Assembly (NCBI GenBank): GCA_028283855.1
Contig: JAPWJX010000003.1
Coordinates: forward strand, 1,302,001 to 1,366,000
Origin: Verrucomicrobium sp.
Lineage (GTDB): Bacteria > Verrucomicrobiota > Verrucomicrobiia > Methylacidiphilales > GAS474
Reading direction: 5' to 3'
DNA: 64,000 nucleotides
Shown piece by piece: positions 9,758 through 24,650 of this stretch. The position numbers were made by a program, and so were the translations under genes. The number at the start of each line of letters is the position of its first letter. Position 1 is the stretch's first letter. Below the pieces are notes generated by a model. The model was not told the origin of the DNA. It did no database searches and saw nothing but the letters and a program-made list of their open reading frames with translations.

Positions 9758-10480
9758 TTAGATTTTTTCCACGCCGACGTGCAGGCCGCATTCCCGCTTG
9801 AGCCCGCCGAAGCGGGTCTCCTCCTCGGTCATGCCCTCCGTCAGCTTCCGGGTGCTGTGCGTGTCCCCGATGGAGACGTAGCCCTGCTCCCAAAGGGGGT
9901 GGTAGGGAAGTTGATGTTTGGAGAGATAGGCGCCGACGTCCCGGTCGGTCCAGTCCAGGATGGGATGAACCTTCAGCCGCCCGTCCTGCACGCCCAGGAA
10001 GCCCAGCTCCCGGCGCGTCGAGGCCTGCTGCCGCCGCAGCCCGGCGATCCAGCCCCACGCGCCCAGCTCCTCCAGCGCGCGGCGCATCGGCTCCACCTTC
10101 ACGATCTCGTTGTAGCGGGTGATCCCCTCCACGCCCTGCTCCCAGAGCTTGCCGTGGCGGGCCTCCAGCTCGGCGGGGGAGGGGAGCGCGCGGTAGGTTT
10201 TCAAATTCAGCTTCAGGCGGCCCGTCAGCTCCTCCACGAAGCGGAGCGTTTCCGGGAAATGGTAGCCCGTGTCGAGGAAGACGACCGGGATCTCCGGCCA
10301 GACCTGCGCCGCCATGTGGAGGCAGACCGCCGCCTGCGCGCCGAAGCTGGAGGAAAGGACGATCCGCCGCTGGAGCGTCTCCACCGCCCAGGCGGTCCGC
10401 GCCTCCGCCGTCATCCCGGCCAGGCGCTCCTGCGCGGCGGGAAGATCGAGGTTCAAGGGTGAAAAGAGAGGCACGCTCAA
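9758..10480 (-). CDS. cysH: Phosphoadenosine phosphosulfate reductase
   Basis: Reduces PAPS (or APS) to sulfite in assimilatory sulfate reduction; 240 residues. The phosphosulfate-binding [13 protein letters not shown] loop, the [12 protein letters not shown] segment and the C-terminal catalytic ECGLH motif are visible. The two CC pairs that bind an iron-sulfur cluster in APS-type reductases are absent, which favours PAPS as substrate and agrees with the APS kinase domain encoded nearby. The start is a TTG at 10480 (or a GTG two codons later). It is divergent from cysD, with a short inverted repeat in the shared promoter region. Confidence 0.92.
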
Positions 10481-10488
10481 AGTCTACT

Positions 10489-10502
10489 TAGCCGATAGGC
10501 TA
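10489..10502. promoter_or_regulatory. Inverted repeat in the cysH/cysD divergent promoter region
   Basis: The perfect palindrome TAGCC-GATA-GGCTA (5-bp arms, 4-base spacer) lies in the 70-base gap between cysH and cysD. It is followed by an AT-rich run. Its position suits an operator controlling both arms of sulfate assimilation. The regulator is not identifiable from the window. Confidence 0.4.
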
Positions 10503-10550
10503 TTAAAAATTCCAGGTTGCCAGGCAGGCGGGCTCCGTCATTGTAGCTCT

Positions 10551-11354
10551 GTGAGCCATCTCGACAAACTCGAGGCCCAAAGCATCTTCATCTTCCGGGA
10601 GGCCTACCATGCCTTCCGCAAGATTGCCATGCCCTGGTCGATGGGCAAGGACTCAAACGTCCTTATCTGGCTGGCGAAAAAGGCCTTCGGCGGCCACATC
10701 CCTTTTCCGCTCCTCCACGTCGACACGACCTACGAGTTCCCGGAGATGATCGCCTTCCGGGATTGGGCGGCGAAGGAGTACGGCCTCGACCTCATCGTAA
10801 AGATCAACGAGGAGGCCCGCGCCCGGGGCGTTGGCTACGAGACGCACGACCCCATCACCGTCACCCACGAGCTGAAGACCGTGGCCCTTCAGCAGGCCAT
10901 GGCGGAGCACCAATGGGACGGCCTCATCACCGGCATCCGCCGGGACGAGGACTCGACCCGGGCGAAGGAACGCTACTTCTCCCCCCGCAACGCCGACTTC
11001 GAGTGGGATTACAAGGACCAGCCGCCCGAGTTCTGGAACCAATTCACCACCCGCATCCAGCCGGGGGAGCACGTCCGCATCCAGCCGCTCTTGGACTGGG
11101 CGGAGATCGACATCTGGCGCTACATCGAGCGGGAGTCGATCCCCGTGCCGCGGATGTACTTCTCCCGGGAGGGGAAGCGCTACCGCTCCCTGGGCTGCTG
11201 GCCCATCACCCACCCCGTCCCCAGCCACGCCGCCACCGTGGCGGAGATCATCGAGGAACTGCGGACGACGAAGACCTCCGAGCGCGCCGGCCGCGCCCAG
11301 GACCACCACGAGCGGAACGCCATGCAGAAGCTGCGGGCGAAAGGGTTCATGTGA
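10551..11354 (+). CDS. cysD: Sulfate adenylyltransferase subunit 2 (ATP sulfurylase small subunit)
   Basis: Forms APS from ATP and sulfate together with the GTPase subunit CysN. It has 267 residues from a GTG start giving [20 protein letters not shown], which matches the standard CysD N-terminus. The frame stays open far upstream but that part overlaps cysH and is not homologous. The PP-loop [38 protein letters not shown] and the C-terminal [10 protein letters not shown] and AGRAQDHH segments are all conserved. The stop overlaps the GTG of cysNC, so the subunits are translationally coupled. Confidence 0.95.
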
Positions 11355-13291
11355 GCGGCGCGAACGGAAACGGCGCAAGCGGCCTTTTGGCCGACGTCGA
11401 CGCGCAGCGGCTGAAGATCGTCATCGTCGGCCACGTCGACCACGGCAAGTCGACCCTCATCGGGCGGCTCTTCTTCGACACCCATTCCCTGCCGGACGGG
11501 AAGGTGGAGGCGATCCGCAAGGCCTGCGAGGCGGAGGGGATGGACTTCGAATACGCCTTCCTCCTGGACGCCCTCCTGGAAGAGCAGGAGCAGAACATCA
11601 CCATCGACACGACGCAGATCCAGTTCCGCACCCAGCGGCGGCCCTACGTCATCATCGACGCGCCCGGGCACAAGGAGTTCCTGAAGAACATGATCACCGG
11701 CGCGGCCAGCGCCGACGCGGCGATCCTCCTCATCGACGCGAAGGAAGGCGTGCAGGAGCAGTCCCGCCGCCACGGCTTCCTCCTTTCCCTCCTGGGCGTG
11801 CGGCAGGTCATCGTGGCCGTGAACAAGATGGACTTGGTCGGCTTCAGCCAGGAACGCTTCGAGGCGCTGGAACGGGAATACCGGGAATTCCTGGGGAAGC
11901 TGGACGTCGTTCCCGCCCATTTCATTCCCGTCTCCGCCAAGCACGGCCACCACATCACCGGCCCCAGCGCCGAGATGCCGTGGTACCGGGGCCCCGCCGT
12001 CCTCCAGGCCCTCGACGCCTTCGCCCTGCCCGCCTCCCGCGCCGACCAGCCGCTGCGCGTCACCGTGCAGGACGTCTACCGCTTCGACGCGCGGCGGATC
12101 ATCGCGGGCCGCGTCGAGTCCGGCTCCCTCTCCGTGGGGGACGAGGTCGTCTTCTGGCCGGACCGGAAGCGGAGCCGCGTCAAGTCCCTGGAACTGTGGG
12201 GCAGCCCCGGCGCGGAGCGCTCCGTCGCGGGGCAGTCGACCGCCTTCACCTTGGAAGAGCAGATTTTCGTGGAGCGGGGGCAGATCGCCAGCCATCCGCA
12301 GGAAGGCCCCATCGAGGGGCAGACCTTCTCCGCCCGCCTTTTCTGGCTGCATGAGGCGCCGCTTCGCGCGGGCGCCTCCTACCCGCTGCGCCTCGGCACG
12401 CAGGAGGCGGAGGCCCGCATTGTGCGGATCGAGCGGGTCGTCGACTCCGGCACGCTGGAAGTCTCCCCGGGCGAGGCCGCCCAGGTGCGGAAGAACGAGG
12501 TGGCGGAGGTCACCTTCCGCACCCGCCGCCCCATCGCCTTCGACAACGTCGACCGGATCACGGAAACCGGCCGCTTCGTCCTCCTGCAGGGGGACCGGAT
12601 CGGCGGCGGCGGGATCATCCACGGGGGCGAATACGCCGCCCTGGACCGGGACGGCGTCCGCGCCGACAACCTGGGCTGGACGGAAGGGGAGGTGACGCCG
12701 GAGGCGCGCCGCCTCCACTTCGGCCATCGGGGCGCGGTCCTGTGGCTGACCGGCCTTTCCGGCTCGGGCAAGTCGACCCTGGCCTCCCGGCTGGAGCGGG
12801 CCCTTTTCCGGGAAGGGATCGGCGCCTTCGTCCTGGACGGGGACAACCTGCGGCACGGCCTGGCCTCCGACCTTGGCTTTTCGGAGGAGGACCGCGCGGA
12901 GAACATCCGCCGCGCCGGGGAGGTGGCCAAGCTGATGGCGGAGGCGGGCCTCGTCGTCGTTGTCTCCCTCATCTCCCCTTTCCGCACGGAGCGGCAGAAA
13001 GTCCGCCACCTCTGCCACGAGGCGGGCATCCCCTTCGCGGAGGTCTACGTGAACGCCCCGCTGGAAGCCTGCGAGGCCCGCGACCCGAAGGGGCTCTACA
13101 AGAAGGCCCGCGCCGGCCAGATCCCGAATTTCACCGGCATCGACTCCCCCTACGAGCCGCCCGCCGAGCCGGAGCTGGAATTGAAGACGGCGGAGCTTTC
13201 GCCGGAGGACGCCCTCCGCGCGCTCCTGGACAAGGCGCGCGCCCTGACCCGCGCCGAGGGGGGGCTGGTCCTCCCGGGCGGCGGGATTTAG
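11351..13291 (+). CDS. cysNC: Bifunctional ATP sulfurylase GTPase subunit / APS kinase (CysN-CysC fusion)
   Basis: A 646-residue fusion. The N-terminal elongation-factor-like GTPase (CysN) has GHVDHGKST at about residues 27-35, DAPGH and NKMD motifs. It drives APS formation by CysD. The C-terminal APS kinase domain begins near residue 460 with [12 protein letters not shown], then DGDNLRHGL, the SPFRTER loop and [10 protein letters not shown], and phosphorylates APS to PAPS. The GTG start overlaps the cysD stop. The gene ends four bases before the stop of the convergent sulfur-carrier operon, so the two sulfur units share their 3' ends. No canonical terminator is visible there. Confidence 0.95.
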
Positions 13292-15085: not shown

Positions 15086-15087
15086 AA

Positions 15088-15118
15088 TCTCTCGTTTTCT
15101 CGGCCCTGGATCGAGAGA
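15088..15118 (-). promoter_or_regulatory. Shine-Dalgarno-sequestering hairpin (expression platform)
   Basis: On the minus strand TCTCTCG (15112-15118) can pair with CGAGAGA (15088-15094). The latter contains the purine-rich ribosome site just before the ATG at 15085. No stem followed by a T-run occurs between the aptamer and the start codon. The switch therefore probably acts on translation rather than by termination. Alternative pairing with the downstream P1 strand is plausible but not shown. Confidence 0.5.
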
Positions 15119-15159
15119 CGGAGAGGGGAGGAGGCTGCCGGAGACCGGGCTGCCCGCCT

Positions 15160-15286
15160 CTCTCATCCTTCCCGGACGCCCGAAATGGGGGCCGGAGCTG
15201 GGTTTGGCACCTGGCGGAAAGGCGTCGCCGCCTTCCCGGTTGCCGCAGCATCGTCGGGCCAGTCCCTCCGCTGCTCTCGATAAGAG
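15160..15286 (-). promoter_or_regulatory. SAM-I (S-box) riboswitch aptamer
   Basis: The minus strand reads CTCTTATCGAGAGCAGCGGA then GGGACTGGCCCGACGATG, GCTGCGGCAACC, later GGTGCCAAACCCAGC, and closes with GGATGAGAG. These are the conserved blocks of the S-box in the right order. P1 pairs CTCTTATC (15279-15286) with GATGAGAG (15160-15167) over eight pairs. P2 pairs GCAGC with GCTGC. It lies 75 bases upstream of the threonine-synthase-family gene and is the only riboswitch I recognise in the window. SAM binding normally lowers expression of methionine biosynthesis or uptake genes. Confidence 0.95.
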
Positions 15287-15385
15287 TCGGCCCATAGATT
15301 GAAGGGCGGGAAGCCGATGTCAATCATGCTTTGGACTGGACGGGGGGGCCGGGCCTTGCCACTCTGATGGGAAGTCCCATCCGAC

Positions 15386-15724
15386 ATGGCATTTATCAGC
15401 GTGGAGGAGGCCAAAGCGGGCCTCGTGCTAGAAGACAGCGTGAAAAACAGCCATGGCCAGCTGTTGGTCGCCGCCGGCACCACGCTGACCGAGCGACACC
15501 TGACCCTTTTGCGGTCCTGGGGCGTCACCCAGGTTCCCGTCTCCGCCAGCGGCGCCGCCGCCAAGGAGCTGGCCGACAGCCAGCAGCTCAGCCAGGAGAA
15601 CCTGGCCAAGGCGGAGACCTCCCTGCTGGAAATCTTCTCCCTGGCCCAGGCGGACGATCCGGTCATGCAGGAAATCTACCGCCAGTGCGTCGCGCGCAAG
15701 GCGAAGCTAGCCCCTTCCTCATGA
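15386..15724 (+). CDS. Small protein resembling the N-terminal domain of HD-GYP-type signalling proteins
   Basis: A 112-residue protein starting MAFISVEEAKAGLVL. Residues 3-55 match the short beta-rich module (GLVLEDSVKNSHGQLLVAAGTTLT, then a helix and GVTQVPV) often found before HD-GYP or HDOD domains. The rest is a helical tail. It is the first gene of a signalling operon and overlaps the HDOD gene by four bases (ATGA). It may be a regulatory subunit of that protein. No catalytic residues are apparent. Confidence 0.7.
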   Translation: MAFISVEEAKAGLVLEDSVKNSHGQLLVAAGTTLTERHLTLLRSWGVTQVPVSASGAAAKELADSQQLSQENLAKAETSLLEIFSLAQADDPVMQEIYRQCVARKAKLAPSS

Positions 15725-16611
15725 GCCAGCCCGTTTCACCCAGCTCGAGTTCGATCGAGGCGCCCGCCCGCGGCGGCACCATCGACCTCATCGACAACCT
15801 GGACGAGATGCCGTCCCTGCCGATGAGCTACCTGGAGATCAAGCGGGAGGTGAACAACCCCGCCTCCTCCCTCTCCCGCATCGGCGAGGTCATCAGCAAG
15901 GACCAGAGCCTCACCCTGCGCCTCCTGCGCCTGGCCAACAGCGCCTTCTTCGGCTTTCCCCGCCGCATTGACACCATCAGCGAGGCGATCTCCGTCATCG
16001 GCCTTCAGCAGGTGCGGGATTTGGCGCTTTGCACCAAGGTCATCGAGATGTTCCGCGGCATCCCGGCCGACCTCCTGGAGACCACCCCCTTCTGGATGCA
16101 CAGCGTCGGCTGCGGCATCGCCGCCCGCGTCCTGGCCGCCCATCAGCGGGAGACGAACCTGGAGCGCTTCTTCGTTGCCGGCCTCCTGCACGACGTGGGC
16201 CGCCTGGTCCTCTGCCTCCGCCAGCCGGAGGCGATGCGGAACATCCTTCAGCGCGCCCGCCAGCAAAAGGAGCCCCTGCACAAGGTGGAGCGGGAGTTCA
16301 TGGGCTACGACCACACCGACGTGGGCGCCGCCCTCCTGAAGGCGTGGGACCTCCCCGCCCCGCTGGTCAACGCCGTCTCCTACCACCACCGCCCCCTCAT
16401 CAACACCGCCTCCCCGAACGACGCGGCCATCATCCACCTGGCCGACATCTTCGCCCACGGCATGGAGCTGGGCAAAAGCGGCGAGCACTATGTCCCGCCG
16501 CTGGCCTCCGGGGCCTGGAAGCGGGAGCCCACCGTCTTCAACAGCGCGATGAAGGAGATCGACCGCCAGTTCGCCGAGGTGAGCGGCATCTTCCTTTCCC
16601 TGAAAAACTAA
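15721..16611 (+). CDS. HDOD domain protein
   Basis: A 296-residue protein. After a serine-rich N-terminus, the HDOD domain spans about residues 20-220 with LPSLPMSYLEI-like helices, NSAFFGFPRRIDTISEAI, and an HD-type pair in GLLHDVGRL. HDOD proteins are non-enzymatic relatives of HD phosphohydrolases that act in signalling, including cyclic-di-GMP-linked and motility pathways. The start is the ATG overlapping the previous stop. It precedes a GAF-like gene by 16 bases. Specific partners are unknown. Confidence 0.85.
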   Translation: MSQPVSPSSSSIEAPARGGTIDLIDNLDEMPSLPMSYLEIKREVNNPASSLSRIGEVISKDQSLTLRLLRLANSAFFGFPRRIDTISEAISVIGLQQVRDLALCTKVIEMFRGIPADLLETTPFWMHSVGCGIAARVLAAHQRETNLERFFVAGLLHDVGRLVLCLRQPEAMRNILQRARQQKEPLHKVEREFMGYDHTDVGAALLKAWDLPAPLVNAVSYHHRPLINTASPNDAAIIHLADIFAHGMELGKSGEHYVPPLASGAWKREPTVFNSAMKEIDRQFAEVSGIFLSLKN

Positions 16612-18338: not shown

Positions 18339-19615
18339 GCGTCCAGGAGTCCGGCCACCACGCAGTCGGCGTATTCGCGGAAGATGCTCGGGTAGAAGCG
18401 GCCGCGGAAGAGGCGTTCCCCCTCGTAATCGCCCGCCACCAGGCGGCGGGCCACCGTGGCGTTGTTCATGAAATAGGGCTCCGTCGTCACCACCGGGCCG
18501 TCGTACTGCCGGTTGGCGCCCAAATTGCGGGCCACCACGTAATAGTTGCCGGGGTCGACCAGGCGGGTCGTCGCCGTGTTGCCGTATTCGACCGGCTTGA
18601 GCCGGGTGGCGGCGGTGAAGGCCCGCGCGATGGAGGCGGCCACCTCGTATTCCACCGGCGTGACCCGGTCCAGGACCTTGTAGAAAAGCCGGAGCTGCTC
18701 GTCCGGGTCCAGGGCCTCCTGCGGCGTGTAGGCCCCCTCGACGAAGAAGATGTTCCGGTTGTCGGAGACCAGGCGGCAGCGGCCGCTGGAAGGAGTGGCG
18801 TTGATGTAGAGGACCAGGGTGACGTCCGGCTGGAAGGAGCGGCGGATCTTCGCCCCGCGGGCCAGGAACTCGTATTTGCGCTCGAAGAGGAGGTGGCTCA
18901 TCTCCTCGATGTGCCCGCGCAGCACGCGCTCCCGCTGGCTCGGCGGGATCACCTTCCAGCGCGGCTTCCAGTCCAGGAGCGCGGCCAGCGCCTCCTCCCG
19001 CAGGTCGGCGGGGCGCAGGTCGGTGACGGGGTCGGTGTCCCGGCGGGTGGGGAAGACGGTGGCGCCCAGGGCGGTCAGCCGCTTTTCCAAAAGGCGGGCG
19101 GTGATGAGGTTCATGTCCCCCTCCTGGATGCGGCCCACGCCGGGATAGAGGGTGGAGCGGTCCTCCACCTGCCCCCAGTCCCCGCCGATGTGGCCGGGGT
19201 CGATGGCGATGCGCAGGCCCTGGAGCGGCTTGCCCTCCGGCTTCGGGGCGGCGCGGAACTGGGCGGGCGTCCGGTAGCGCCAGGGGGCCTTTTCCTTCCC
19301 CGCCGTGGCGAAGGCCAGGTGGAACTGCTCCACGCGCCGCTCCGCGCCGCTGGGGTAGAGGGTGAAGCCCTGGTCGTCGATCTTCAGCAGGGGAACCAGC
19401 GCGCGGCCGGGGTCGAAGAGGCGCAGGGACGCCTCGAACTGGGAGCGGGTGAGCGCCCCGTCATAGCGGGCCATCCAAAACCACGGGTTAGGGCTGCCCC
19501 CGGCCTGGGTCACGGGCACGTCGGCATGCTTGCCGAAGAGCCCCGAAAAAAGCCCGGCGGCCAGGACGGGGGCGCACCAGGCGGAAAATAATCCACCGAA
19601 CATCGGCGGCATCAT
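18281..19615 (-). CDS. N-acetylmuramoyl-L-alanine amidase-like exported protein (divergent Amidase_3)
   Basis: About 444 residues from the chosen ATG at 19615 (MMPPMFGGLFS, giving a signal peptide). An in-frame ATG at 19699 would overlap lysA, and another lies at 19603. A central domain carries Amidase_3 hallmarks: IAIDPGHIGGDWG with the first zinc His, EGDMNLITARLLEKRL with the zinc Glu, and TEPYFMNNATVARR with the likely catalytic Glu. The usual second zinc His (SIHAN in the family) appears as LYINA, so a ligand may be missing. It would act in the periplasm on peptidoglycan if active. It is divergent from lysA. Confidence 0.75.
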   Translation of the reverse strand: MMPPMFGGLFSAWCAPVLAAGLFSGLFGKHADVPVTQAGGSPNPWFWMARYDGALTRSQFEASLRLFDPGRALVPLLKIDDQGFTLYPSGAERRVEQFHLAFATAGKEKAPWRYRTPAQFRAAPKPEGKPLQGLRIAIDPGHIGGDWGQVEDRSTLYPGVGRIQEGDMNLITARLLEKRLTALGATVFPTRRDTDPVTDLRPADLREEALAALLDWKPRWKVIPPSQRERVLRGHIEEMSHLLFERKYEFLARGAKIRRSFQPDVTLVLYINATPSSGRCRLVSDNRNIFFVEGAYTPQEALDPDEQLRLFYKVLDRVTPVEYEVAASIARAFTAATRLKPVEYGNTATTRLVDPGNYYVVARNLGANRQYDGPVVTTEPYFMNNATVARRLVAGDYEGERLFRGRFYPSIFREYADCVVAGLLDAYGPAGDKGAASNSVASLK

Positions 19616-19697
19616 GCCGTCCCGCGCCCGGCTGACAAGACCCGTGCGGGCCTGTTTACACCCAGGGGCCGGTTTGCTAAACCTAGCTTCCTTTTTC

Positions 19698-20975
19698 ATG
19701 CACCATTTCCATCTTCAGAACGGCGGCCTGCACGTGGAGGGAGTCTCCCTTGACGCCCTGGCCAAGAAGCACGGCACCCCCCTCTACGTCTATTCCGGCA
19801 ACACCATCCTGGACCACTTCCGCCGCCTGCGGCAGGCGATGGCGCCGGTCGATCCCATGATCTGCTATGCCGTGAAGGCCAATTCCAACCTGGCCGTCCT
19901 CCGCCTCCTGGCGAAGGAGGGGAGCGGCTTCGACGTCGTCAGCGGCGGGGAGCTCTACCGCGCCCAGCAGGCGGGGGCCGACCCGGCCCGCTGCACCTTC
20001 GCCGGCGTGGGGAAGACCCGCGCGGAAATCGAGCAGGCGCTGCGCGCCGGCATCTACTGCTTCAACGTGGAGAGCGAGCCCGAGCTGCGCTTCATCAACG
20101 AGGTGGCGGGCCGCCTCAAGAAGAAGGCCCCCGTGGCCGTCCGCGTGAACCCGAACGTCGACGCGGGCACGCACAAGAAGATCACCACCGGCACCTACGA
20201 GAACAAGTTCGGCATCGCCTTCGAGGAAGTCGCCGCCCTCTACCGCGCCGCCTCCCGCCTGCCGCACCTGCATTTGCGCGGCGTGCAGATGCATATCGGC
20301 TCCCAGATCACCGGGCCGAAGCCCTTCGTCGCCGCGGTGAAGAAGATGGCTCCCCTGGTCCGCGAGCTGAAGGCGGCCTACGGCATCGAGTTCTTCGACG
20401 TCGGCGGCGGCCTGGGCATCGTCTACGACCGCGCCCTGGAAAGCGGCGAGAAGAAGTGGTGGAAGGGCCGCCAGCCCGCCATGACGCCGGACGTCTACGC
20501 CCGGCACCTGCTGCCCCTCCTCAAGCCCCTGGGCCTGCGCATCCTCATGGAGCCGGGCCGCTTCCTGGTGGGCAACGCCGGGGTCCTCCTCACCGAGGTG
20601 CTCTACGTGAAGAAGACCGGCCGGAAGAACTTCGTCATCGTCGACGCGGCGATGAACGACCTCATCCGCCCCGCCTTCTACGACTCCTACCACGAGATCG
20701 TCCCCCTCCAGCCCCGGGGCGGCAAGGCCCTGAGCAGCGACGTCGTCGGCCCCGTCTGCGAGTCGGGCGACTTCTTCTGCCACGACCGCCCGCTGGCCCC
20801 CGTCCGCTCCGGCGACCGCCTGGCCCTTTTGAGCGCGGGCGCCTACGGCTTCACCATGGCCTCCAACTACAACACCCGTCCCCGCGCCGCCGAGGTGCTG
20901 GTCAACGGCGGCAAGCCCCGGCTGGTCCGCCGCCGGGAGGAGCTGGCCGACCTGCTGAAGGGGGAAAGCGCGTGA
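19698..20975 (+). CDS. lysA: Diaminopimelate decarboxylase
   Basis: Last step of lysine synthesis: meso-diaminopimelate to lysine, PLP-dependent, cytoplasmic. It has 425 residues from the ATG giving MHHFHLQNGGLHVEG. The PLP lysine is Lys60 in YAVKANSN. HIGSQI, the DVGGGLGI phosphate loop, EPGRFLVGNAG and the CESGDFF active-site Cys segment are all present. It is first in a tightly coupled lysA-dapF-dapA-dapB operon and its stop overlaps the GTG of dapF. No Shine-Dalgarno is obvious before the ATG. Confidence 0.96.
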   Translation: MHHFHLQNGGLHVEGVSLDALAKKHGTPLYVYSGNTILDHFRRLRQAMAPVDPMICYAVKANSNLAVLRLLAKEGSGFDVVSGGELYRAQQAGADPARCTFAGVGKTRAEIEQALRAGIYCFNVESEPELRFINEVAGRLKKKAPVAVRVNPNVDAGTHKKITTGTYENKFGIAFEEVAALYRAASRLPHLHLRGVQMHIGSQITGPKPFVAAVKKMAPLVRELKAAYGIEFFDVGGGLGIVYDRALESGEKKWWKGRQPAMTPDVYARHLLPLLKPLGLRILMEPGRFLVGNAGVLLTEVLYVKKTGRKNFVIVDAAMNDLIRPAFYDSYHEIVPLQPRGGKALSSDVVGPVCESGDFFCHDRPLAPVRSGDRLALLSAGAYGFTMASNYNTRPRAAEVLVNGGKPRLVRRREELADLLKGESA

Positions 20976-21775
20976 AGCTCCCCTTCGTCAAGATGACCGG
21001 GGCGGGGAACGACTTCGTCATGGTCGACAACCGCGCCCTTTCCTTCCCCCTGGACAAGGAGCGGATCGCCGCCCTGTGCGACCGCCGCTTCGGCATCGGC
21101 GCCGACGGCCTGCTGGCCGTGGAGCCGGGCGCGGAGGGGGCCGACTTCCGCATGCGCTACTACAACGCCGACGGCGGCGAGGCCGAGATGTGCGGCAACG
21201 GCGCGCGGTGCTTCGCCCAATACGTCCGCCACCTCGGCGCGGCCGCCGGGCAGGCCACCTCCTTCCTTACCCCCGCCGGGCGGATCGAGGCCCGTTACGA
21301 GGGGGAGGAAATCCAGCTCACCCTCACCCCGCCGCAGGACTGGAAGCTTTCCCAGACCCTCGACACCCCCGCCGGGCCGCTGGAAGTCCACTCTGTCAAC
21401 ACCGGCGTGCCCCACGCCGTCGTCTTCGTGCCGGACGTGGCGGCGGTCGACGTCGCCACCCTCGGCGCCGCCCTGCGCCGCCACGCGGCGTTCGCGCCGA
21501 AGGGGACCAACGCCAACTTCGTCCAGGTCACCGGGGCCGATTCCCTGCGCGTCCGCACCTTCGAGCGCGGCGTGGAGGGGGAGACCCTGGCCTGCGGCAC
21601 CGGCGTCGTCGCCTCCGCCCTGCTGGCCCACCGCCTCGGCAAAGTCGCCGCGCCGGTCCGCGTCACCGTGGAGGGGCGCGCCATCCTCACCGTCGGCTTC
21701 CAGGAGGGCTACCAGAACGTCACCCTCCAGGGCCCGGCCCTCGTCGTCTATACCGGAGAAATCTCATGGAACTAG
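20972..21775 (+). CDS. dapF: Diaminopimelate epimerase
   Basis: Converts LL- to meso-diaminopimelate for lysine and peptidoglycan; 267 residues. The two active-site cysteines are in EMCGNGARC and LACGTG. The opening VKLPFVKMTGAGNDFVMVDN is standard. The start codon is GTG, overlapping the lysA stop (GTGA). It overlaps the start of dapA by ten bases. The coupling suggests fixed stoichiometry across the pathway. Confidence 0.96.
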   Translation: MKLPFVKMTGAGNDFVMVDNRALSFPLDKERIAALCDRRFGIGADGLLAVEPGAEGADFRMRYYNADGGEAEMCGNGARCFAQYVRHLGAAAGQATSFLTPAGRIEARYEGEEIQLTLTPPQDWKLSQTLDTPAGPLEVHSVNTGVPHAVVFVPDVAAVDVATLGAALRRHAAFAPKGTNANFVQVTGADSLRVRTFERGVEGETLACGTGVVASALLAHRLGKVAAPVRVTVEGRAILTVGFQEGYQNVTLQGPALVVYTGEISWN

Positions 21776-22650
21776 TTTTGCACGGCGTCTACACCGCCCT
21801 CGTCACCCCCTTCCGCGACGGCAAGGTCGACGAAGCCGCTTTCCGCCGTCTCGTCGAGGAACAGGTCGCCGGAGGCGTCACCGGCATCGTGCCGGTCGGC
21901 ACCACCGGGGAATCGCCCACCCTGGACTATGACGAGCACTTCCGCGTCATCCAGCTGGCGGTGGAGACGGCGCAGGGCCGCGTCGCCGTCCTGGCGGGGA
22001 CCGGCTCCAACAGCACCGCGGAGGCCATCAAGCTCTCCCAAGGCGCGCAGGACCTGGGGGCCGACGGCCTCCTCGTCGTCACCCCCTATTACAACAAGCC
22101 GAGCCAGGAAGGCCTCTACCGCTACTACACCGACGTGGCGGAGGCGACGAAGATCCCCCTCGTCCTCTACAGCGTCCCCGGACGCTGCGGCGTGGAGATC
22201 GGCGTGGAGACGGCGGCCCGCCTGGCCGCCCACCCGCGCATCGTCGCGCTGAAGGAGGCGGGCGGCAACGTCGACCGCGGCAGCGCGCTGCGCCAGGCCG
22301 TGCCGGAATCCTTCGCCCTCTTCTCCGGGGACGACGGGCTGACCCTCCCGTTCCTCTCCGTCGGCGCGGTCGGCGTCATCAGCGTCGCCTCCAACCTCGT
22401 CCCCCGGGAAGTCGTCGCCCTCGTCCAGGAATGGCGCGCCGGGAAATTTGCCGAGGCGGAGGCGCGCCACCGCCGCCTCTACCCGCTCTTCCGCGACCTC
22501 TTTATCGAGAGCAACCCCGTCCCCGTGAAGACCGCCCTGGCCCGCCAAGGGTGGATGACCGCCGACGTGCGCGGCCCGCTGGCTCCGGTGAGCGCGGCCA
22601 GCCTGGCCAAGCTGGAGGTTACCCTGGCCGCCCTGGGAGAGGCCCGCTGA
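21766..22650 (+). CDS. dapA: 4-hydroxy-tetrahydrodipicolinate synthase
   Basis: Condenses pyruvate with aspartate semialdehyde, the entry step to diaminopimelate; 294 residues. It is a TIM-barrel enzyme with GTTGESPTL near the N-terminus, the YYNKPSQEGLY tyrosine loop and the Schiff-base Lys163 in VALKEAGGN. It starts inside the end of dapF and ends one base before dapB. Confidence 0.96.
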   Translation: MELVLHGVYTALVTPFRDGKVDEAAFRRLVEEQVAGGVTGIVPVGTTGESPTLDYDEHFRVIQLAVETAQGRVAVLAGTGSNSTAEAIKLSQGAQDLGADGLLVVTPYYNKPSQEGLYRYYTDVAEATKIPLVLYSVPGRCGVEIGVETAARLAAHPRIVALKEAGGNVDRGSALRQAVPESFALFSGDDGLTLPFLSVGAVGVISVASNLVPREVVALVQEWRAGKFAEAEARHRRLYPLFRDLFIESNPVPVKTALARQGWMTADVRGPLAPVSAASLAKLEVTLAALGEAR

Positions 22651-22651
22651 C

Positions 22652-23368
22652 ATGAAGATCGCCGTCGTCGGCGCCGCCGGGCGCCTCGGTTCCGCCATCG
22701 TTCGCCTGGGCGGGGAGGAAACCGCGCCCGTCCGCCGCGGCGACGACCTGGCCGCCGCCGTCCGCGCCGCTTCCGCCGTCATCGACGTCAGCCACCACAG
22801 CCTGACCGGCGCGCTGGTGGACGCGGCCCTCGCGGCGGGCAGGGGCCTAGTCATCGGCACCACCGGCCATCCGGAGGCCGAGCTGGCCCGCCTGCGGGAA
22901 GCCTCCGCGAAGATCCCCGTCCTCCTGGCGCCGAACTTCTCCGTCGGCGTCACCCTCCTGGGCTTCCTGGCGCAAAAGGCCGCCGAAGTCCTGCGGGACT
23001 ACGACCAGGAGATCGTCGAGATGCACCACCGGCACAAGAAGGACGCCCCCAGCGGCACCGCCCGCCGCCTGGCGGAGGTCCTCTGCGCCGTGAAGGGGAA
23101 GCCCTACGCCGCGCTGGTCCGCGACGGCCGCTCCGGGGAAACCGGGGCGCGCACGGCGGACGAGATCGGTCTCCACGCCCTGCGGGGAGGAGACGTCATC
23201 GGGGACCACACCGTCGTCTTCGCCGGGGAAGGGGAGCGGATCGAGCTGACCCACAAGGCCTCCACCCGGGACACCTTCGCCGTGGGCGCGCTGCGCGCCG
23301 CCCGCTGGATCGCGGGGAAGCCGCCCGGCTGGTACGGGATGGAAGACGCCTTGGGCCTGAAGATTTAA
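22652..23368 (+). CDS. dapB: 4-hydroxy-tetrahydrodipicolinate reductase
   Basis: NAD(P)H-dependent reductase acting after DapA; 238 residues, slightly shorter than the common 250-270. The N-terminal dinucleotide motif VVGAAGRLG, GTTGH, APNFSVGV and the signature MHHRHKKDAPSGTA are all conserved. It is the last gene of the lysine/DAP operon. Neither the dapD/dapE nor the dapL branch is encoded in this window. Confidence 0.96.
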   Translation: MKIAVVGAAGRLGSAIVRLGGEETAPVRRGDDLAAAVRAASAVIDVSHHSLTGALVDAALAAGRGLVIGTTGHPEAELARLREASAKIPVLLAPNFSVGVTLLGFLAQKAAEVLRDYDQEIVEMHHRHKKDAPSGTARRLAEVLCAVKGKPYAALVRDGRSGETGARTADEIGLHALRGGDVIGDHTVVFAGEGERIELTHKASTRDTFAVGALRAARWIAGKPPGWYGMEDALGLKI

Positions 23369-23849: not shown

Positions 23850-23882
23850 TCCGCCTGGCGGATTGAAGATTTGAGTTTCCCT

Positions 23883-23903
23883 GCTCATGTTAAAGACATG
23901 AGC
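23883..23903 (+). promoter_or_regulatory. Inverted repeat enclosing the superoxide dismutase start codon
   Basis: GCTCATGT-TAAAG-ACATGAGC is a perfect 8-bp inverted repeat with a 5-base loop. Its right arm contains the ATG at 23898. There is no Shine-Dalgarno in front. The loop also holds a four-codon frame (ATG at 23887, stop at 23999 minus 100, i.e. 23899-23901) whose stop overlaps the start codon. It could be an mRNA hairpin that limits initiation, or a protein-binding site. Confidence 0.4.
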
Positions 23904-24650
23904 ATCACGCGCCGCCAAGCCCTCCGCACCGCCTTCTCCGCCGCCGCCGTTTCCCTGGCCGGGACCTCCCTCTTCCGGCCTTTCCTAGCCCAGGCCGCCC
24001 CGGCTCCCGCCGCCGCGCCGGCGCCCGCCGGTCCCTACGTCCTGCCGCCGCTCTCCTACGCCTACGACGCGCTGGAGCCGTACGTCGACGCCGAGACGAT
24101 GCACCTCCATCACGACAAGCACCACGCCGCCTACGTCGCCAAGCTGAACGAGGCCGTCGCCGCCTACCCGGAACTGGGAAAAAAACCGGTCGACGAGCTC
24201 CTGCGCGATTTCCAGGCCGTGCCGGACGCCATCAAGAAAGCCGTCCGCAACCAGGGCGGCGGACATGCCAACCATTCCCTCTTCTGGAAGACCCTGGCGA
24301 AGAACGGCGGCTCCGGCCCGAAGGGTGAGCTGGCCGCCGCCATCGACCGCGACCTGGGCGGCCTGGAAAAGTTCCAGGCCGACTTCACGAAGGAGGCCCT
24401 GGGCGTCTTCGGCAGCGGCTGGGCGTGGGTCATCGTCGATCCGTTGACGAAGAAGCTTTCCCTGGAATCGACGCCGAACCAGGACAGCCCGCTTTTGGAG
24501 GGGAAGACCCCGCTCTTCGGCCTCGACGTCTGGGAGCACGCCTACTACCTGAAGTACAAGAACAAGCGGCCGGACTACGCGGCGGCGTTCTGGAAGGTTC
24601 TCAACTGGGACTACGTTTCCGGCCAATACGCCGATTTGAAGAAGGCCTGA
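23898..24650 (+). CDS. Superoxide dismutase, Fe/Mn family, with Tat-type signal
   Basis: Dismutates superoxide; 250 residues from the ATG giving MSITRRQALR. The N-terminus has a twin-arginine motif and a hydrophobic stretch ending near residue 35, so the enzyme is probably exported folded. Metal-ligand motifs are present: LHHDKHHAAYV, HANHSLFW and DVWEHAYYLKY. The NQDSPL segment places a Gln in the position typical of the Mn-type or cambialistic enzymes. The frame is open back to 23871, but that extension would put the Tat motif inside the chain. Confidence 0.92.
   Translation: MSITRRQALRTAFSAAAVSLAGTSLFRPFLAQAAPAPAAAPAPAGPYVLPPLSYAYDALEPYVDAETMHLHHDKHHAAYVAKLNEAVAAYPELGKKPVDELLRDFQAVPDAIKKAVRNQGGGHANHSLFWKTLAKNGGSGPKGELAAAIDRDLGGLEKFQADFTKEALGVFGSGWAWVIVDPLTKKLSLESTPNQDSPLLEGKTPLFGLDVWEHAYYLKYKNKRPDYAAAFWKVLNWDYVSGQYADLKKA

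Follow-up and report, generated by a model that had tools for sequence, protein, structure and literature searches.

A SAM-I riboswitch in Verrucomicrobiota precedes a threonine synthase homologue that is probably a MetM-type homocysteine synthase

The riboswitch and the genes that follow it

The window, by which we mean the whole stretch of 64,000 nucleotides analysed here (positions 1,302,001 to 1,366,000 of contig JAPWJX010000003.1 from Verrucomicrobium sp.), carries a 127 nt SAM-I riboswitch aptamer on the minus strand at 15286–15160. The initial annotation had called this an unambiguous SAM-I aptamer with an 8-bp P1 and a 5-bp P2, and a covariance search with cmscan confirms it: the RF00162 match scores 74.3 bits, well over the gathering score of 44.4 (E 1.5e-15), spans the full length of the model (1–108), and its boundaries agree to the base with those given earlier. 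Both helices are as described, P1 being formed by CUCUUAUC/GAUGAGAG (8 bp including one U-G; strands 15279-15286 and 15160-15167) and P2 by GCAGC/GCUGC (5 bp). A genome-wide search returned this site as the sole RF00162 match in the 2.56-Mb assembly. Aptamer, leader and downstream genes are all co-oriented on the minus strand, and the ATG of the first gene (15085) lies 74 nt past P1. To all appearances the aptamer is a fully typical member of the SAM-I (S-box) class, unusual only in the name of its target gene.

That target encodes a PLP enzyme of 416 aa (15085–13835, minus strand) which is homologous to threonine synthase (PF00291, TIGR00260), has a Cys-rich motif at its N-terminus, and scores 286.8 bits against TIGR00260 (thrC) and 294.6 against PRK08197, the latter slightly below the cut-off of 303. 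We describe it as MetM-like on the basis of its clade, its fixed residues and its replacement pattern, which are discussed below. The second gene (13822–13547, minus strand; PF02597) specifies a MetO-like sulfur-carrier protein of the MoaD/ThiS type, 91 aa in length, whose C-terminus reads PAIAGG, the terminal GG being invariant across 20 homologues; its nearest solved relative is CysO, from the CysM:CysO complex of M. tuberculosis. The third (13544–13296, minus strand; PF09383) encodes a stand-alone NIL-domain protein of about 82 aa. The NIL family profile matches the C-terminal domain of the transporter MetN (structures 3dhx/3dhw), a methionine-binding domain, and the position aligned to MetN Asn295 is occupied by Asn in 14 of 17 homologues, whereas the protein of the window has Ser there. 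This third protein probably binds methionine or serves as an accessory subunit. Given the kinship of its domain with that of MetN, it might more specifically be a dedicated part of the homocysteine synthase, a methionine-sensing feedback subunit that would add a second control atop the SAM switch, although we regard this more specific role as tentative and somewhat doubtful.

Assimilatory sulfate genes (cysH, cysD and cysNC, window 9758-13291) adjoin the switched operon and are convergent with it, cysD/cysNC facing the operon and cysH lying beyond. In some relatives cysH, cysD and cysNC continue the operon on the same strand. Two further neighbours were named from sequence: an HDOD-type gene (15331-16611, plus strand), divergent from the riboswitch leader, and a superoxide-dismutase-like protein with a twin-arginine-like leader (23871-24650), which comes after a run of lysA, dapF, dapA and dapB (19530-23368, plus strand).

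Elsewhere in the same genome, a separate canonical ThrC adjoins hom (homoserine dehydrogenase). MetE is present and full MetH is absent; MetX and MetA were searched for in this genome and neither was found. Its single PF01053 protein (locus L129, 4084-5319) is nearest to methionine gamma-lyase/cystathionine gamma-synthase-family models, all of which it matches below cut-off. The only ThiF-family gene found encodes a MoeB-type E1 fused to rhodanese (contig 9; locus L233, 2309-3497), and this gene reads in two frames, the frameshift being either the assembly's or the gene's own.

The expression platform

The leader between aptamer and start codon (15086–15159, minus strand) is the predicted expression platform and contains a likely Shine-Dalgarno sequence, GAGAG, at 15089-15093. 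A terminator was sought in this leader and none was found, nor is there a T-run, and the 90 nt after the aptamer show no unusual fold stability (z 0.74). Folding, which is suggestive only, offers a possible anti-sequestor pairing of 15160-15168 with 15108-15117, and in a hand-picked anti-sequestor model the Shine-Dalgarno sequence goes from 0.10 to 0.48 unpaired. This modelling suggests translational control of the window's leader, in which the ribosome-binding site may be hidden. Among the relatives, 17 of 56 leaders contain a terminator, compared with about 6% after shuffling, and for 16 of these 17 an antiterminator could be built from the P1 3' strand. On the strength of these potential structures, the switch of the terminator-type relatives is predicted to be a standard OFF switch with SAM.

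Recurrence in the class and beyond

In a survey of 141 genomes from the same class as the window, RF00162 was detected in 58, almost always as a single copy, giving 59 sites. At 56 of these the same enzyme (69–85% identical) is encoded 65–180 nt downstream as the first gene. Members of the MoaD family occur in 51 of the class genomes and those of the NIL family in 47. Of the three exceptional sites, one is at the end of a contig (G086), one is the second switch of its genome (G031) and one scores below threshold (G001). The second SAM-I of G031 (contig 57, locus L047; 71 bits) precedes AAA-type ATPase-like and metallopeptidase-like genes (named from sequence), not methionine genes. The RF00162-like match of G001 (locus L059, switch end at oriented 2158), at a sub-threshold 37.5 bits, is situated before cysH-cysD-cysNC in a genome without the MetM-like gene. 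Two tandem MoaD-like genes follow the MetM-like gene at loci L049, L051, L161, L169 and L178.

Related loci in other phyla were collected by a scan of GTDB genomes, which covers the best 80 loci among the matches listed and is not a census. Among these matches the enzyme is found at 59–68% identity in Deltaproteobacteria, Mariprofundus, Nitrospirae, Omnitrophota, Planctomycetota, a cyanobacterium and Elusimicrobia (according to record titles), with a MoaD gene in most of the listed loci and a NIL gene in many. The clusters, again among the matches listed, also hold genes for MoeB/ThiF (25/44), CysK (22/44), a JAB peptidase (14/44) and a TusA-like protein (10/44). We examined 43 scan loci, mostly from other phyla (one, from Kiritimatiellae, belongs to the window's own phylum or superphylum), and found RF00162 upstream in 19, in 17 cases within about 250 nt. 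Five Nitrospirota loci have the order enzyme, MoaD, NIL and then canonical ThrC, and a proposed homoserine kinase (L199) and aspartate kinase (L205) occur in this group. At the cyanobacterial locus L210 the Rfam matches were below their cut-offs and were disregarded. The metM–metO pair of the actinomycete Nonomuraea has its own RF00162 upstream (68.7 bits), and no NIL gene is present in the ORF list after the pair.

It could be argued that the switch mainly serves another part of the operon, the adjacency of the enzyme reflecting conserved gene order only, as the second SAM-I of G031 and the sub-threshold match of G001 precede other genes. We consider this extremely unlikely, since the enzyme comes first at the 56 class sites and at 17 of the 43 scan loci across phyla, and it is the later genes that vary. 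The association of RF00162 with this gene set, reported initially from a single locus, is a recurrent one. With the switch real and the association recurring, the earlier proposal that methionine status rather than threonine controls the operon is upheld as likely, with methionine/SAM as the probable signal.

Identity of the switched enzyme

The designation of the locus as a threonine-synthase-family operon stands in so far as the family models match, but only as a family label, as a separate ThrC lies beside hom and the switched enzyme belongs to a distinct clade that replaces MetX/MetY. Maximum-likelihood analysis places the switched enzymes from every sampled phylum in a single group, which includes those of Nonomuraea and the cyanobacterium. 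This group of switched threonine-synthase-like enzymes (TSL) is separate from the ThrC encoded in the same genomes, and also from other zinc-ribbon threonine synthases, the split between TSL and ThrC having 100/100 support. Both keep the PLP lysine and the SFKDR motif, whereas 24 positions are fixed differently, several of them within motifs such as STGNT, GNAGN and IGNPxSW of ThrC, which appear in TSL as STGNL, ASGSL and IGTPADG. In ThrC, the changed motifs presumably surround substrate and PLP.

The distribution of TSL was compared with that of the canonical enzymes of homocysteine synthesis across the 141 class genomes, 62 of which are carriers and 79 non-carriers. TSL and MetX occur together in 10 genomes, TSL without MetX in 52, MetX without TSL in 70, and neither in 9 (Fisher p 5e-19); the corresponding numbers for strong PF01053 matches are 16, 46, 75 and 4 (p 9e-19; 141 genomes). 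Shared ancestry inflates these p values, for which the genus-level count, with an exclusion p of about 1e-8, is a partial correction. Neither MetX nor a PF01053 enzyme is present in 45 of the 62 carriers, compared with 4 of the 79 non-carriers, and 3 of those 4 are incomplete genomes. There are counter-cases, as 10 carriers also possess MetX and 16 a PF01053 enzyme, and PF01053 was also found in 18 of the 43 genomes of the examined scan loci. MetA is absent from all but one of the 141 genomes, and MetH is present in most. Statistically, TSL stands in for the canonical MetX/MetA and MetY/MetB within the class. The PF01837 homocysteine enzyme was detected in 0 of the 141 class genomes, so that the PF01837/NIL-ferredoxin pathway is rejected.

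An enzyme of this kind has been described from Streptomyces albulus, where MetM is reported to be a new homocysteine synthase that uses O-phosphohomoserine; a sulfur-carrier gene, metO, accompanies it, and metM is preceded by a SAM riboswitch (Hasebe et al. 2024, AEM 90:e01247-24, doi 10.1128/aem.01247-24, as cited in PMC12172450). The window's enzyme is 53.6% identical to Nonomuraea MetM, with which it shares the clade, the gene order and the switch; the putative orthology to S. albulus MetM is based on this Nonomuraea protein as a stand-in. We favour the interpretation that the window's enzyme is most likely MetM, a homocysteine synthase using O-phosphohomoserine and a sulfur carrier, and that the operon is, very probably, a SAM-repressed homocysteine synthase operon of the MetM/MetO type. 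The initial annotation had regarded a threonine synthase homologue as an unexpected target of SAM-I. This view is not sustained, because with the enzyme read as MetM the target is methionine synthesis, and hence an expected one.

A genuine second threonine synthase would require the switch to tune the O-phosphohomoserine branch point between threonine and methionine. The family models do call the gene thrC, and a Microcystis homologue with 51.6% identity to MetM reportedly acts as threonine synthase and deaminase in vitro, a role in methionine synthesis in the cell having been doubted (PMC12172450); this result is the main counter-evidence to an identification as MetM. However, a canonical ThrC is already encoded beside hom, the switched enzyme forms its own clade with the 24 fixed differences, a sulfur carrier gene is adjacent, and the gene replaces MetX/MetY. 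Moreover, the feedback would run in the wrong direction, as repression of threonine synthesis at high SAM would leave more precursor for methionine. We thus consider a second threonine synthase improbable and, given the separate ThrC, the distinct clade and the gene-replacement pattern, reject the assignment as a true threonine synthase.

Nor do we favour a CysM/CysO-like enzyme, which would make cysteine or another thiolated product from activated serine and the MoaD-like carrier, with SAM controlling general sulfur assimilation. CysO as the nearest solved structure of the carrier, the adjoining sulfate-assimilation genes, and the JAB peptidase and CysK genes in the clusters of other phyla all fit such a function, but the enzyme is ThrC-like rather than CysM-like (TIGR01138 only 40 bits, thrC 286.8), and a separate CysK is encoded in 22 of 44 clusters among the matches listed. 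The observed anti-correlation is with homocysteine genes, the group that the survey covered. On the scores and the distribution, a CysM/CysO-type cysteine synthase is very unlikely.

Proposed pathway and its relation to known systems

As with the role of the NIL protein, we infer the substrate, the reaction, the sulfur route and the direction in which the window's leader switches. The MetM-like enzyme would take O-phosphohomoserine from the threonine pathway and exchange the phosphate for sulfur, which the MoaD-like protein would deliver as a thiocarboxylate at its C-terminal glycine; this carrier is likely charged by the E1/rhodanese protein, whose gene lies on another contig. The resulting homocysteine would then be methylated to methionine by MetE. 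At low SAM the operon would be on, and at high SAM the closing of P1 in the aptamer would lower expression. Some of the relatives would use terminators to this end, whereas the leader of the window probably conceals its ribosome-binding site.

As far as the published summary of the Streptomyces MetM/MetO system goes, it shares with the window the ThrC-homologous PLP enzyme, the adjacent sulfur-carrier gene and the upstream SAM riboswitch; the window adds the NIL gene and the adjoining sulfate genes, other phyla add ThiF, JAB, CysK and TusA, and the activity is a predicted one here. In the CysM/CysO/Mec system of M. tuberculosis, a MoaD-like carrier ending in GG likewise supplies a PLP enzyme, but its product is cysteine, not homocysteine, and its enzyme is of the CysM and not the ThrC type. 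Unlike in the Mec system, no JAB gene family was present among the conserved genes of the class operons. Wolinella succinogenes has a protein-thiocarboxylate methionine pathway in which HcyS acts with MetY (PF01053) on acylated homoserine. There too a sulfur carrier feeds homocysteine synthesis, whereas the window's enzyme has an unrelated PLP fold type. Operons combining MoaD, E1, JAB and cysteine synthase genes have been described (Iyer et al. 2006, PMC1779556). The DUF39 (PF01837)/NIL-ferredoxin pathway by which methanogens and Desulfovibrio make homocysteine also involves a NIL domain, and at least one more such pathway was noted as still undiscovered (Price et al. 2018, PMC5764234). A part for NIL in homocysteine synthesis would be common to both, but the NIL protein of the window is without the ferredoxin part and the class is without PF01837.

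The core idea is already known, because metM with a SAM riboswitch has been reported from Streptomyces: according to that summary, the MetM/MetO route and the SAM switch before metM have been known since 2024. What our data add is the spread across phyla, the replacement statistics and the usual NIL partner, which we did not find described in the literature searched, and no account of a SAM-I–metM–metO–NIL arrangement in Verrucomicrobiota was found there either (subscription journals were mostly outside its coverage).

The genes that are annotated as threonine synthase in Verrucomicrobiota, and likewise in several further phyla, probably provide the missing homocysteine step. Predictions of methionine auxotrophy would therefore be wrong, including those for complete Methylacidiphilaceae-type genomes that lack MetX or MetY. 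It is the riboswitch that points to the corrected annotation, and with the NIL gene the pathway has a well-defined candidate component that is open to testing.
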